Shown here piece by piece: positions 28,108 to 38,085 of a stretch of DNA of 64,000 nt. Position numbers and translations under genes: made by a program. The notes beneath the pieces were generated by a model. It did not search any database. It saw only the letters and a list, made by a program, of their open reading frames with translations, and had not been told where the DNA came from. This DNA is from Chloroflexus aggregans DSM 9485 (GTDB lineage Bacteria; Chloroflexota; Chloroflexia; Chloroflexales; Chloroflexaceae): assembly GCF_000021945.1 (NCBI RefSeq), contig NC_011831.1:372001-436000 (forward strand), given 5' to 3'. The first letter of the stretch is position 1, and each line of letters opens with the position of its first letter.

Positions 28108-28557
28108 CACGCCACCGGGAAGGAGTATCACCGCTATCGAGAAGACGGTTCAGGCGAACACACACGCGCTATCGCCGATTCGTCGGCAAGTGGTGGCCGC
28201 CTGGGATGGAACAACACGAGAAACTCGACGTTCCCGGTCGGACCGGTGATCGGGTAGCCCACGCCACCGGGAAGGATCATCACCCCCATCGAGAGGACGG
28301 TTCAGGCGAACACACACGCGCTATCGCCGATTCGCCGGTAACCGGTGGCCGCTTGGGATGGAACAACACGAGAAACTCGACGTTCCCCGCCGGACCGGTG
28401 ATCGGGCAGCCCACGTCACCGGGAAGGAGCATCACCCCTATCGAGAGGACGGTTCAGGCGAACACACACGCTCTATCGCCGATTCGCCGGTAACCGGTGG
28501 CCGCTTGGGATGGAACAACACGAGAAACTCGACGTTCCCCGCCGGACCGGTGATCGG
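28108..28557. repeat. 152-bp tandem repeat, three copies, derived from the tlyA 3' end
   Basis: Copies begin at 28108, 28260 and 28412, an exact 152-base period. The third copy includes the real 3' end of tlyA (stop at 28438). Read on the minus strand, each copy encodes the tlyA C-terminus ([20 protein letters not shown] and onward) followed by non-coding sequence. The copies nearest the gene are almost identical; the outermost (28108-28259) is the most diverged. Because 152 is not divisible by 3, the extra copies cannot extend the protein. With 27970-28107 this explains the 468 bases without a gene. Confidence 0.9.
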
Positions 28558-30243: not shown

Positions 30244-31338
30244 TCAACTCACGATTGATTGATCACCGTCGGCGTTGCTGTTAGCTGACGACACCTGGGG
30301 GCGTTGCCAGGTTTGTTGGAGAGCAACCGACTCGGTCGTTCCTGCTTCGTGCTCGATCAAGCAACGGTCAAATGCCGAACGCAGTGTTGTCTCATCGAGC
30401 TGGCCCGGCAAGCCGATAAAGACCATCTGTGTCTGCGGTGGCTGATTGCCCCATGGCTCACCAACCGTGACCTGCACACGCGATCCGACCAATTGCAATA
30501 CCGCTCGACGCTGCGGTACTTCGGCAAGATAGACTAATCCCTTCGCACGAAAGATCGCCGGCGGTAAGTCAAGAATCACGCGCCGAAACGCATGGAGTGT
30601 AAACGGTTGATCGGCAACATAGCTCCACGTTGCAAATGCAGAGCCGTGGTCGTGGTCGTGGTCGTGATGATCATGGTCGTGATGGTCGGATTCCGCAGCG
30701 ACAACGAGATGCGGGAGTGGCATACGATGTTGCAACCGGCCCACATCTAAGAGCAAACGCAGCGGTACATCGGCATACATCGCCGGCAGAATACGCGCCT
30801 GTGGGACAATCCGCCGCACCCATGCTTCAAGCTCGGTTAACTGATCGGACGGCACGAGATCAATTTTGTTAAGCACGACAATATCAGCAGCGCTGATTTG
30901 TTCGACAATCAACGACTCATACGAGGGTTGCCGGTGTACATACTCGGCATCAATAACCGTGATCACGCTATCGAGGCGGAAATAGGTGCGTAGCTCCGGT
31001 AGCAGGAAGGTATCGGCAATTGCCCACGGATCACTTACGCCACTTGCCTCAATAATCAGATACTCTGGCGGCTGTGGTCTTTCTAACAAGGTAAATGCTG
31101 TCTGGAGTAGATCATCGCGGATCGTACAGCAGACGCACCCGTTTGCCAAGGAGATCGTTTCACTCTCGACATCAATTACGAGCTGCGCGTCGATATTGAT
31201 CGAACCAAAATCGTTGACGAGAACGGCAACCCGCAAGCCATGATCGGCTTTCAAGATGCGATTGAGCAACGTCGTCTTCCCGGCACCGAGAAAGCCGGTC
31301 AGAATAGTTACCGGAATTGGTTGCTGAGGCACTTCCAT
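30244..31338 (-). CDS. CobW/COG0523 GTPase, putative metal chaperone
   Basis: 364 residues from the ATG at 31338, with AGGAATGATGGA just upstream as ribosome-binding region. The G domain shows Walker A GFLGAGKTT at 15-23, the metal-binding CxCC (CVCC, 68-71), EASGVSDP and NKID. A histidine/aspartate-rich loop (about 216-232: HHDHDHHDHDHDHG) is typical of zinc- or cobalt-handling members. The CobW C-terminal domain follows. COG0523 GTPases deliver zinc or other metals to client proteins. It follows fmdB, a zinc-ribbon gene, by 20 bases. A palindrome upstream of fmdB may regulate both. Confidence 0.9.
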   Translation of the reverse strand: MEVPQQPIPVTILTGFLGAGKTTLLNRILKADHGLRVAVLVNDFGSINIDAQLVIDVESETISLANGCVCCTIRDDLLQTAFTLLERPQPPEYLIIEASGVSDPWAIADTFLLPELRTYFRLDSVITVIDAEYVHRQPSYESLIVEQISAADIVVLNKIDLVPSDQLTELEAWVRRIVPQARILPAMYADVPLRLLLDVGRLQHRMPLPHLVVAAESDHHDHDHHDHDHDHGSAFATWSYVADQPFTLHAFRRVILDLPPAIFRAKGLVYLAEVPQRRAVLQLVGSRVQVTVGEPWGNQPPQTQMVFIGLPGQLDETTLRSAFDRCLIEHEAGTTESVALQQTWQRPQVSSANSNADGDQSIVS

Positions 31339-31358
31339 TCCATCATTCCTTTCATGGA

Positions 31359-31595
31359 TTATGAACGCCGACGCGGCCGGCAACACGAACAGTCAAGACC
31401 ATGGACAACCCGCGCGATCTGCGCCGGAGTAGCGTATACCGGCTCTGCTTGGCGGCGTGTGTGAAAGGTGCTGATGACCCGTGTACACCATCCGTGACAA
31501 ATAGGGCATTCAACCGGTATGTCGGCTTGCCATGCAGGACGCAGCTCTTCCAGCTCGATGTCGCATTCGGGGCATTCGTAGACGTAGATTGGCAT
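31359..31595 (-). CDS. FmdB-type zinc-ribbon protein
   Basis: 78 residues. It begins MPIYVYECPECDIELEELRP, with the first Cys pair CPEC, and has the second pair CPIC near residue 30, the FmdB/CxxC-CxxC regulatory-protein ribbon. The C-terminus adds an unusual CSCC cluster just before RPRRRS. Function of FmdB proteins is poorly defined; the name comes from formamidase operons. First gene of a likely two-gene unit with the CobW GTPase. Confidence 0.85.
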   Translation of the reverse strand: MPIYVYECPECDIELEELRPAWQADIPVECPICHGWCTRVISTFHTRRQAEPVYATPAQIARVVHGLDCSCCRPRRRS

Positions 31596-31626: not shown

Positions 31627-31655
31627 TATTGAGATAATATATCATTTACTCAATA
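31627..31655. promoter_or_regulatory. 29-bp imperfect palindrome upstream of fmdB-cobW
   Basis: TATTGAG (31627-31633) and CTCAATA (31649-31655) flank an AT-rich core that contains GATAATATATC (31633-31643); 10 of 14 base pairs match across the dyad. It lies 32-60 bases before the fmdB ATG, read on the minus strand, where a metal-responsive repressor could block transcription. The AT-rich, Fur/Zur-like look together with a COG0523 gene suggests a Zur-type site. This is inference only. Confidence 0.45.
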
Positions 31656-31710
31656 GTGTCAATCGTTTCTTTCACGCCCACCCTGCGTTCTCCTCAGTAT
31701 TCTCCCTTTC

Positions 31711-33475
31711 CCCCCGCCCCCGTCGGCAATCCGGTGGGTTGGCATGCGCCCCGCCCCCGTCGGCAATCCGGTGGGTTGGCATACGCCCCCGCCCCCGTCG
31801 GCAATCCGGTGGGTTGGCATGCGCCCCCGCCCCCGTCGGCAATCCGGTGGATTGGCATGCGCCCCCGCCCCCGTCGGCAATCCGGTGGGTTGGCATGCGC
31901 CCCCGCCCCCGTCGGCAATCCGGTGGGTTGGCATGCGCCCCCGCCCCCGTCGGCAATCCGGTGGGTTGGCATACGCCCCCGCCCCCGTCGGCAATCCGGT
32001 GGGTTGGCATGCGCCCCCGCCCCCGTCGGCAATCCGGTGGGTTGGCATGCGCCCCCGCCCCCGTCGGCAATCCGGTGGGTTGGCATACGCCCCCGCCCCC
32101 GTCGGCAATCCGGTGGATTGGCATGCGCCCCGCCCCCGTCGGCAATCCGGTGGGTTGGCATGCGCCCCCGCCCCCGTCGGCAATCCGGTGGATTGGCATG
32201 CGCCCCGCCCCCGTCGGCAATCCGGTGGGTTGGCATACGCCCCCGCCCCCGTCGGCAATCCGGTGGGTTGGCATGCGCCCCCGCCCCCGTCGGCAATCCG
32301 GTGGGTTGGCATGCGCCCCCGCCCCCGTCGGCAATCCGGTGGGTTGGCATGCGCCCCCGCCCCCGTCGGCAATCCGGTGGGTTGGCATGCGCCCCCGCCC
32401 CCGTCGGCAATCCGGTGGATTGGCATACACCCCGCCCCCGTCGGCAATCCGGTGGGTTGGCATGCGCCCCGCCCCCGTCGGCAATCCGGTGGGTTGGCAT
32501 GCGCCCCGCCCCCGTCGGCAATCCGGTGGGTTGGCATGCGCCCCGCCCCCGTCGGCAATCCGGTGGGTTGGCATGCGCCCCGCCCCCGTCGGCAATCCGG
32601 TGGGTTGGCATACGCCCCCGCCCCCGTCGGCAATCCGGTGGGTTGGCATGCGCCCCCGCCCCCGTCGGCAATCCGGTGGGTTGGCATGCGCCCCCGCCCC
32701 CGTCGGCAATCCGGTGGGTTGGCATGCGCCCCCGCCCCCCTCGGCAATCCGGTGGGTTGGCATACGCCCCCGCCCCCGTCGGCAATCCGGTGGGTTGGCA
32801 TGCGCCCCCGCCCCCGTCGGCAATCCGGTGGATTGGCATGCGCCCCGCCCCCGTCGGCAATCCGGTGGGTTGGCATACGCCCCCGCCCCCGTCGGCAATC
32901 CGGTGGGTTGGCATGCGCCCCCGCCCCCGTCGGCAATCCGGTGGGTTGGCATGCGCCCCCGCCCCCGTCGGCAATCCGGTGGGTTGGCATGCGCCCCCGC
33001 CCCCGTCGGCAATCCGGTGGGTTGGCATGCGCCCCCGCCCCCGTCGGCAATCCGGTGGATTGGCATACACCCCGCCCCCGTCGGCAATCCGGTGGGTTGG
33101 CATGCGCCCCGCCCCCGTCGGCAATCCGGTGGGTTGGCATGCGCCCCCGCCCCCGTCGGCAATCCGGTGGGTTGGCATGCGCCCCGCCCCCGTCGGCAAT
33201 CCGGTGGGTTGGCATGCGCCCCGCCCCCGTCGGCAATCCGGTGGGTTGGCATACGCCCCCGCCCCCGTCGGCAATCCGGTGGGTTGGCATGCGCCCCGCC
33301 CCCGTCGGCAATCCGGTGGGTTGGCATACGCCCCCGCCCCCGTCGGCAATCCGGTGGGTTGGCATGCGCCCCCGCCCCCGTCGGCAATCCGGTGGGTTGG
33401 CATGCGCCCCCGCCCCCGTCGGCAATCCGGTGGGTTGGCATGCGCCCCCGCCCCCGTCGGCAATCCGGTGGGTTG
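31711..33475. repeat. Minisatellite: 46 tandem 37/38-bp units
   Basis: The unit begins CGGCAATCCGGTGG, continues GTTGGCATGCGCC and ends in CCCGCCCCCGT. From 31724 to 33457 I count 46 full units: 32 of 38 bases (five C's after GCG) and 14 of 37 bases (four C's), totalling 1734 bases. A partial unit lies at each end. Variants are limited to a few positions: GGGTTGG or GGATTGG, CATGCG, CATACG or CATACA, and the C-run length. All frames on both strands are open because the unit lacks stops and is not a multiple of 3; I regard those frames as non-coding. The G-rich minus strand could form G-quadruplexes. With flanks, this fills the gap 31596-33569. Confidence 0.95.
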
Positions 33476-33503
33476 TAGGGGCACAGCGGCGCTGTGCCCC
33501 TAC
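33475..33503. repeat. GTAG...CTAC palindrome abutting the minisatellite
   Basis: A perfect inverted repeat with 13-bp arms GTAGGGGCACAGC (33475-33487) and GCTGTGCCCCTAC (33491-33503) and a 3-base loop. Its first base is the last base of the minisatellite's terminal partial unit. It belongs to the same GTAG-bordered palindrome class as 8671-8700. It may also serve as a boundary or terminator ahead of the peroxidase gene. Confidence 0.8.
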
Positions 33504-33569: not shown

Positions 33570-34067
33570 ATGTCGGTTTATCAATTTACCGCCCAACGCA
33601 TTGACGGCACTCTGCAACCGCTCTCCGAATATCGCGGGCAAGTGCTATTGATCGTCAACGTCGCCAGTATGTGTGGACTTAGCCCACAATATGCCGGTTT
33701 AGAACAGCTCTATCGTCGCTACCGCGATCAAGGGTTTGCCGTCCTGGGCTTTCCGAGCAACCAGTTTATGCAAGAACCGGGCAGCAACGAAGCAATTGCC
33801 GAGTTCTGCGAACGAACCTATCAGGTAACGTTCCCGCTTTTCGCAAAAGTTGACGTGAACGGCCCAAATGAGCATCCCTTGTTTGCCTATCTCAAGCGTC
33901 AGCAGCCGGGCTTATTTGGCAGTACGGCAATCAAGTGGAATTTCACCAAGTTTCTCGTTGATCGAAACGGCAAACCATACCGACGCTACGCTCCAACCGA
34001 TTTGCCTTCGGTGATCGAAAACGATATTGTTGCGCTTTTGCGTCAACAACCTGCAACGGTAGGATAA
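33570..34067 (+). CDS. Glutathione-peroxidase-family thiol peroxidase
   Basis: 165 residues. The catalytic elements are NVASMCGLSP with the peroxidatic Cys at 35 (Cys, not selenocysteine), LGFPSNQF with the catalytic Gln, and KWNFTKFLVDRNG with the catalytic Trp and Asn. Non-metazoan Cys-GPx enzymes usually draw electrons from thioredoxin rather than glutathione. The second cysteine near residue 87 (AEFCERTYQVTFPLF) is in the place of the resolving Cys of thioredoxin-dependent members. A cytoplasmic location is likely because no signal peptide is present. A purine-rich AAAGGAGCA ribosome-binding site precedes it. Confidence 0.93.
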   Translation: MSVYQFTAQRIDGTLQPLSEYRGQVLLIVNVASMCGLSPQYAGLEQLYRRYRDQGFAVLGFPSNQFMQEPGSNEAIAEFCERTYQVTFPLFAKVDVNGPNEHPLFAYLKRQQPGLFGSTAIKWNFTKFLVDRNGKPYRRYAPTDLPSVIENDIVALLRQQPATVG

Positions 34068-34542
34068 ACGACGCCCAAAACCCGACGTAACAAGTTTCGA
34101 GTGCGGTGTGGTACGGCGTATTGTAAGCGAGGTGTATTTGCCTCGCACACCACATCCTCATGCCACCTATGTCGTTAACCTCGCCTGACTTCAGCCCACC
34201 GTGGTGTGCGATAGGGTAACTGCGTGCCAGACCTGCGGTGGGTTGAAGCCGTCGCCTGCCCCATGCCAGCCCCCCTGTGGTGTGCGATAGGGTAACTGCG
34301 TGCCAGACCTGCGGTGCGACGTGCGACAGCGGTCTGTCCCGTTCCATCCTTCCCTACGATTTGCGCCTACTTCGAGTAAGAGCAACAGAGCGAACCGGTT
34401 CATCACACCACGGCTTTGAAACGGTGTCTATCTCTAACCAACCTGATCAACTATTAACCATACCTGATAGCGAAACGCGGTATGATACATCAAAACAATC
34501 GCCTGCTATTACCTATCAAATAACCTAACAGGATAGAGGATC
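34068..34542. repeat. 475-base gene-free gap with a 40-bp direct repeat
   Basis: A 40-base sequence beginning GTGGTGTGCGATAGGGTAAC occurs at 34201-34240 and again, without change, at 34277-34316, a 76-base spacing. A hairpin GCGAGG (34127-34132) with CCTCGC (34141-34146) lies after the peroxidase gene and could be its terminator. TATGAT at 34481-34486 may be the -10 box for the Nudix gene. Nothing here looks coding. Confidence 0.75.
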
Positions 34543-36293: not shown

Positions 36294-37997
36294 TTATTCT
36301 TGATCTGCATTACTGCGAGTCTTCTGATCTGGATCTGAACGGTGTACACTTGATGGCTTTCGCTCCGATTGATTTGTGCGTCTCACCGACGTTTTCGGAG
36401 TATCACGGTGTGACGTTGGCGAGCGGTGTTCAGAACGTGACTGCGCTGCATTATCCCAATTTCGCGGATTCCGCTCGGTATTGCGCCGTTCGTCTTGCCG
36501 GCCACGCGGTGCCCGACCGGCGCGGGCGTCCGTCTCGTCCCACGCCCCACGCCCCGCCTCGCCGCGGCTGTCTTGCCGGCCACGCGGTGCCCGACCGGCG
36601 CGGGCGTCCGTCTCGCCCCACGCCCCACGCCCCGCCTCACCGCGGCTGTCTTGCCGGCCACGCGGTGCCCGACCGGCGCGGGCGTCCGTCTCGCCCCACG
36701 CCCCACGCCCCGCCTCACCGCGGCTATCTTGCCGGCCACGCGGTGCCCGACCGGCGCGGGCGTCCGTCTCGCCCCACGCCCCACGCCCCGCCTCGCCGCG
36801 GCTGTCTTGCCGGCCACGCGGTGCCCGACCGGCGCGGGCGTCCGTCTCGCCCCACGCCCCACGCCCCGCCTCGCCGCGGCTGTCTTGCCGGCCACGCGGT
36901 GCCCGACCGGCGCGGGCGTCCGTCTCGCCCCACGCCCCACGCCCCGCCTCGCCGCGGCTGTCTTGCCGGCCACGCGGTGCCCGACCGGCGCGGGCGTCCG
37001 TCTCGCCCCACGCCCCACGCCCCGCCTCGCCGCGGCTGTCTTGCCGGCCACGCGGTGCCCGACCGGCGCGGGCGTCCGTCTCGCCCCACGTTGGACCTTC
37101 TGTGACACGTTCGTCACGTTGTTCCCGACGCGAACGGTCACTGCTCCGACGTTCGCTGTGCTCAGATCGCTGCCGCGTTACCGGCGCTGAGTCCCCGGCA
37201 CGGTGAGGTTTTTCATCAAGAGCGCGAGACTTCACTACATCGGTCGATCTGGTTGGCACATCCGCTAACGATCGACGCACCGAAACATGTGCGCGAAGTG
37301 CAGCTACTTCTTCATCGGTCAAATGACGCCACGCACGTGGCGGCAAATCACCGAGCTGTAGCGGACCTTCACGCACCCGAACCAGACGACGCACTTCATA
37401 GCCCAAGAGCTTGGCGACAGCGCGGATTTGGCGTTTGCGCCCTTCTCGCAACACAATCCGCACCCACACACCTTCAGGAGTTGTCTCAAGCAATTCAACC
37501 CATGCCGGTGCGGTCATCTCACCTTCGAGCAGCACACCATTACGCCAACTCCGCAATGCATCGGGCGTTAATGCTCGATCAAGTAATACCCGGTACTCTT
37601 TCTCGACCTCAAAACTCGGATGCGTCAGGGCATAGGCCAACTCGCCATCATCGGTCAGCAAGATCAAACCTTCGCTATCCAGATCAAGCCGTCCTACCGG
37701 AAAAACACGTGCCGGGACATCGACCAAGTCGACAACTGTGGGACGACCATGAGGATCTTCCGCTGTCGAAACCACCCCTGCCGGCTTGTGTAGCATAATA
37801 TAGGTGCGCTTGGCCGGCATCCGCAGCGGTTGCCCATCAACCAACACTTCATCATGCTCAAGGTCGACGCGCGTACCGGGCACAGTCACGACGCGGCCAT
37901 TTACCGTTACTCGCCCAGCAGCAATGAGTTCTTCACAATCGCGCCGCGATGCGATCCCGGCACTCGCCAATACTTTCTGTAAACGTTCAGGGCTCAC
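36294..37997 (-). CDS. RluB/RsuA-family pseudouridine synthase with a long Arg/Gly-rich repeat tail
   Basis: 567 residues, with GTG at 37997 as the likely start because GAAAGG lies 6 bases upstream. Residues 1-60 are an S4 domain (RLQKVLASAGIASRRDCEEL). The catalytic domain follows with GRLDLDSEGL at 102-111 holding the catalytic Asp. This part is complete by about residue 240. Residues about 303-501 are 7.65 copies of a 26-residue unit, WGETDARAGRAPRGRQDSRG plus EAGRGA, followed by a charged tail ending NADQE. Related enzymes modify 23S or 16S rRNA uridines. Tails of this kind are expected to be disordered and RNA-binding. Confidence 0.9.
   Translation of the reverse strand: MSPERLQKVLASAGIASRRDCEELIAAGRVTVNGRVVTVPGTRVDLEHDEVLVDGQPLRMPAKRTYIMLHKPAGVVSTAEDPHGRPTVVDLVDVPARVFPVGRLDLDSEGLILLTDDGELAYALTHPSFEVEKEYRVLLDRALTPDALRSWRNGVLLEGEMTAPAWVELLETTPEGVWVRIVLREGRKRQIRAVAKLLGYEVRRLVRVREGPLQLGDLPPRAWRHLTDEEVAALRAHVSVRRSLADVPTRSTDVVKSRALDEKPHRAGDSAPVTRQRSEHSERRSSDRSRREQRDERVTEGPTWGETDARAGRAPRGRQDSRGEAGRGAWGETDARAGRAPRGRQDSRGEAGRGAWGETDARAGRAPRGRQDSRGEAGRGAWGETDARAGRAPRGRQDSRGEAGRGAWGETDARAGRAPRGRQDSRGEAGRGAWGETDARAGRAPRGRQDSRGEAGRGAWGETDARAGRAPRGRQDSRGEAGRGAWDETDARAGRAPRGRQDERRNTERNPRNWDNAAQSRSEHRSPTSHRDTPKTSVRRTNQSERKPSSVHRSDPDQKTRSNADQE
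36494..37090. repeat. 78-bp in-frame tandem repeat in the pseudouridine synthase gene
   Basis: Units start at 36494, 36572, 36650, 36728, 36806, 36884, 36962 and 37040 with an exact 78-base period; the eighth stops after 51 bases. Copies differ at very few positions (for example the TCGTCCCAC variant in the first, and CTCACC in place of CTCGCC in two copies). The period is a multiple of 3 and keeps the reading frame. Other frames are also open across the array because no stop occurs in the unit; these I consider non-coding. Confidence 0.93.
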
Positions 37998-38085
37998 AGA
38001 CAACCTTTCATGTTGACCAATAGATAAAAAAGAGAGCGAACCGAATATCTGTACGACGCGCACGTGGCGAGGGATAGGCGCAACA

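Follow-up and report, generated by a model that had tools for sequence, protein, structure and literature searches.

The MIRU-VNTR minisatellites of Mycobacterium tuberculosis are intergenic, possess units of tens of base pairs, and constitute a dispersed family. Satellites of prokaryotes were described by Subirana and Messeguer (2019, PMC6749651), whose survey of reference genomes lists 76 satellites (14.4/Mb) for Chloroflexus aurantiacus, more than for any other bacterium tabulated there. GTAG-tagged palindromes are also already known, with Chloroflexi among their hosts (PMC3733652).

We analyzed a stretch of 64,000 nucleotides (the window) from Chloroflexus aggregans DSM 9485, whose genome consists of one 4,684,931-bp contig. 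The window contains a 37/38-bp tandem array that we regard, with a probability of roughly 0.83, as a non-coding bacterial minisatellite (satellite/VNTR) that grew by slippage and unequal exchange and probably lacks a dedicated function.

Structure of the array

TRF run on the window placed the array at 31711–33475 (1.77 kb), with a period of 38 and 46.8 copies. Unit boundaries were set by splitting at (G/C)TCGGCAATCC.

31711..33475, no strand: 37/38-bp tandem array, from TRF and unit splitting; 32 units of 38 bp and 14 of 37 bp add up to 46 full units, which are followed by a partial unit of 20 bp

The full units extend from 31722 to 33455 (1734 bp in total), and the partial unit (33456–33475) forms the right end. 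An array of such length is far beyond chance. Its exact copy number derives from one assembly. All differences between the units come down to three G/A positions, the length of a C run (C4 or C5), and a single private G-to-C substitution at 32740. This anatomy bears out the earlier note, which had counted the same 32 and 14 units (over 31724–33457, a range of equal length in a different phase), had confined the variation to three sites and the length of one C run, and had placed a single private G-to-C change near 32740.

Seven types of full units can be distinguished (A 22, B 9, C 8, D 3, E 2, F 1, and G 1), which follow each other in the order BCAFAACAACDADCAAAAEBBBBCAAAGADCAAAAEBABBCBCAAA. 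A run of nine types in this order reappears 17 units farther on and corresponds to an exact repeat of 380 bp.

32128..32507, no strand: internal segmental duplication, first copy (17-unit shift, 640 bp; 380 bp identical)
32768..33147, no strand: internal segmental duplication, second copy (offset 640)

The length of this longest duplicated run of unit types was reached in 0.1% of 5000 shuffles of the unit order (permutation P about 0.001). The recurrence of the run at a shift of 17 units indicates that blocks of many units were duplicated, which points to the outcome that unequal exchange or large slippage would produce. The internal duplication thereby supports the previous suggestion that the homogeneity of the units reflects recent expansion or unequal exchange, and we infer slippage together with unequal exchange as the mechanism behind the array.

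The unit contains no stop in any frame. This had been pointed out before and is true, yet unremarkable, because 79% of its dinucleotide shuffles are likewise stop-free; the open frames within the array follow from this property. No frame runs open across the array and its 150-bp flanks on both sides, and units of 37/38 bp are not a multiple of three; a coding amino acid repeat was therefore rejected, in agreement with the initial view that the array is not coding. CRISPR was also rejected, as had been proposed, since unit splitting yielded directly contiguous units with zero unique spacers. A search of the array against Rfam returned no match at the gathering score; the sole sub-threshold match scored 19.1 bits where 241 were required.

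Genomic context

The array is located between the divergent, predicted promoters of fmdB-cobW and gpx and leaves both in place.

30244..31386, minus strand: CobW family GTPase (PF02492, 5.2e-55; PF07683, 5.6e-20)
31361..31594, minus strand: FmdB-like protein of 78 amino acids, divergent left neighbor (orthologs 74–79% identical in four congeners; no Pfam match)
31634..31662, minus strand: predicted fmdB-cobW promoter, TTGACA-17-TATTAT, 49 bp left of the array (region conserved in four congeners)
33475..33503, no strand: near-perfect 29-bp palindrome GTAGGGGCACAGCGGCGCTGTGCCCCTAC, a GTAG-tagged, REP-like dispersed hairpin adjoining the right end of the array (fold z −6.35)
33570..34067, plus strand: glutathione-peroxidase family gene (gpx), right neighbor (PF00255, 4.4e-39; orthologs in all eight genomes)

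A candidate TATAAT between the array and gpx was found by eye and is not a scan match. Given its site where two promoters meet, the array may have a regulatory side effect. The fmdB-cobW promoter also carries a palindrome, TGA[GT]A[CT]AATATATCA (window 31630–31644), which is conserved in C. aggregans and four congeners. We take this palindrome to resemble a Fur/Zur-type operator, which would suit a cobW gene of the COG0523 type. Just 3′ of the peroxidase gene lies a weak array of 37 bp × 3 (window 34192–34306).

The flanking hairpin corresponds to the description of GTAG REPs, i.e. GTAG-tagged palindromes of 20–40 bp in many copies: GTAGGGGCACAGCGGCGCTGTGCCCCTAC has 29 matches in the C. aggregans genome (both strands counted) and is present, with at most two mismatches, in seven of eight Chloroflexus genomes.

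Distribution of the unit and the orthologous site

A 22-bp core of the unit (at most two mismatches) occurs 47 times in the C. aggregans genome, every time inside the array. The same search in 40 relatives gave two occurrences, each a single copy with two mismatches, one of which (in genome G002) falls within a reading frame of 468 amino acids; none of the 40 relatives contains an array of this unit. An exact copy of the unit was found neither in genome_contigs (about 85,000 genomes) nor in viral_contigs, collections from which records of the own or very near genomes may be missing. The mobile-element origin left open in the earlier note is thus unsupported, because the unit sits at one locus only. 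A transposed satellite family, which would need the unit at several loci, was rejected.

In four syntenic congeners, the spacer between fmdB and gpx measures 293–478 bp and contains no array, and promoter-proximal sequence is recognizable on both sides. The array is therefore lineage-specific. A search for an ancestral seed, in which the unit was aligned to the fmdB-gpx spacers of these four relatives, gave P values of 0.01, 0.06, 0.13, and 0.81 (uncorrected) for the best alignments.

A close fmdB ortholog upstream of gpx was not found in G002, G003, and G004 (loci L042, L044, and L047, respectively), G002 being only 82% complete. The fmdB-cobW pair thus seems to be variably present across the genus. 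G003 (5,258,541 bp), which we take to be C. aurantiacus J-10-fl, possesses an unrelated array of 212 bp × 2.7 upstream of gpx.

Abundance of arrays in Chloroflexus

Arrays were surveyed by TRF on evenly spaced genome tiles, which for C. aggregans covered 780 kb outside the window and locus L078. In these tiles, 31 arrays reach 150 bp or more; 12 arrays reach 500 bp and 6 reach 1 kb. Arrays make up 2.7% of the bases. The unit sequences differ between these arrays, and only 10 of the 31 have a frame that is open through both 150-bp flanks. For the same three length classes, we counted 26, 4, and 2 arrays in C. aurantiacus (G003; 380 kb), 10, 3, and 1 in G006 (380 kb), and 11, 2, and 1 in G030, a member of the same order (220 kb). 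The arrays of G003 and G006 resemble those of C. aggregans in kind. Arrays of at least 500 bp thus amount to about 15 per Mb in the tiles of C. aggregans and about 10 per Mb in those of C. aurantiacus; the Escherichia coli control tiles comprised only 50 kb, too small for a rate. Because the genome is full of such arrays, the array described here is real but mostly ordinary.

Further long homogeneous arrays consist of 21 bp × 66 (L144:13418-14814) and 57 bp × 26 (L086:2737-4212). The window itself contains a tandem array of 152 bp × 3 (28108–28557, 94% matches) and one of 78 bp × 7.7 (36492–37090, 99% matches). The latter is in frame (26 amino acids) and falls within the C-terminal region of a pseudouridine synthase that carries an S4 domain (36294–38063, minus strand).

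Loss of repair was considered as a cause of the array abundance and rejected: MutS1 and SbcD were both found in the C. aggregans genome, so simple loss of these two does not account for it.

Origin of the array and alternative explanations

The array would have arisen de novo in the spacer between the divergent fmdB-cobW and gpx promoters in the C. aggregans lineage. Replication slippage between the GC-rich units may have driven growth to 46 units, and unequal exchange would have duplicated blocks of many units while also keeping the units alike. The array would thus be one among many unrelated arrays in an array-prone genus. It is presumably near-neutral under selection, and any effect on fmdB-cobW or gpx would be incidental, through spacing or DNA structure.

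The position between two divergent promoters would also suit a cis-regulatory or insulating array, in which repeated binding sites, or a G-quadruplex or i-motif on the G-rich minus strand, tune or separate the promoters. Indeed, G5CG5 is found in nearly every unit on that strand, and two-tetrad G-quadruplex motifs occur on both strands, with a local G4Hunter peak of −1.76. However, neither strand of the array contains a canonical G3+ N1-7 motif, since one G5CG5 block cannot supply four G3 runs; the idea of G-quadruplexes raised in the earlier note is thus weak, two-tetrad motifs being the only ones present. Moreover, single-strand folding of the array is not better than that of shuffles, its sequence is not common to the other arrays of the genome, and the congeners keep both genes and their promoter regions without it. 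We consider a regulatory or insulating function improbable. An artefact of assembly, in which the copy number collapsed or became inflated, is highly improbable: a 1.77-kb array exceeds a Sanger read and the copy number comes from one assembly, but the variant units are interspersed in a non-trivial order and comparable arrays exist across genomes of the genus. Even so, the number of units may be inaccurate.

The hairpin that exactly adjoins the right end raises the question whether the array is a by-product of a GTAG-palindrome (REP/RAYT-like) element, with DNA processing at the hairpin seeding the array. GTAGGGGC or GCCCCTAC is found inside or within 60 bp of 7 of the 31 arrays that measure 150 bp or more, compared with 3.4% of random stretches. 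Some of the seven cases share one cluster and are not independent, so the excess amounts to a lead. At 4.392–4.394 Mb (L078:7472-9551), an array of 125-bp units even carries within its unit the GTAG hairpin seen beside the 37/38-bp array. On the other hand, this hairpin is missing from the 37/38-bp unit itself and from the majority of arrays. The Y1 transposase loci of C. aggregans mostly do not have this palindrome nearby; only L186 bears GTAGGGGC palindromes, and their stem sequence is different. Seeding by the hairpin is therefore very unlikely. It is somewhat speculative, and on the whole doubtful, that an active process in Chloroflexus repeatedly makes sequence-unrelated arrays, often beside GTAG palindromes, with this array as a young product that can be traced at a known empty site.

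Comparison with known systems

The array alone matters little. As a minisatellite, it offers a clean case in which the orthologous site of congeners is empty and past block duplication can still be read, and it could serve as a marker for strain typing or for measuring array growth in a bacterium having MutS1 and SbcD. The high satellite load of the genus was noted before; an explanation was not found in the literature searched.

With CRISPR arrays, the locus shares a unit length within the range of CRISPR repeats, but its units are contiguous and without spacers. Like the MIRU-VNTRs of M. tuberculosis, the array is intergenic, has a unit of tens of base pairs, and is expected to vary in copy number (the analysis covered one strain), whereas it occupies a single locus and MIRUs are a dispersed family. 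The adjoining 29-bp hairpin resembles the GTAG REP elements (PMC3733652) in its initial GTAG and in its dispersal across the genus; the array unit shows no such dispersal and is not itself a strong hairpin.

Prokaryotic satellites comprise at least 4 contiguous units of 10–260 nt, at least 60% of them identical in length (PMC6749651); here 46 units are contiguous and 32 of them (70%) measure 38 bp. The array resembles these satellites as a regular tandem array of unique sequence in a genus listed as satellite-rich, although the text of the survey gives C. aurantiacus and not C. aggregans, the host of the 46 units of 37/38 bp described here.
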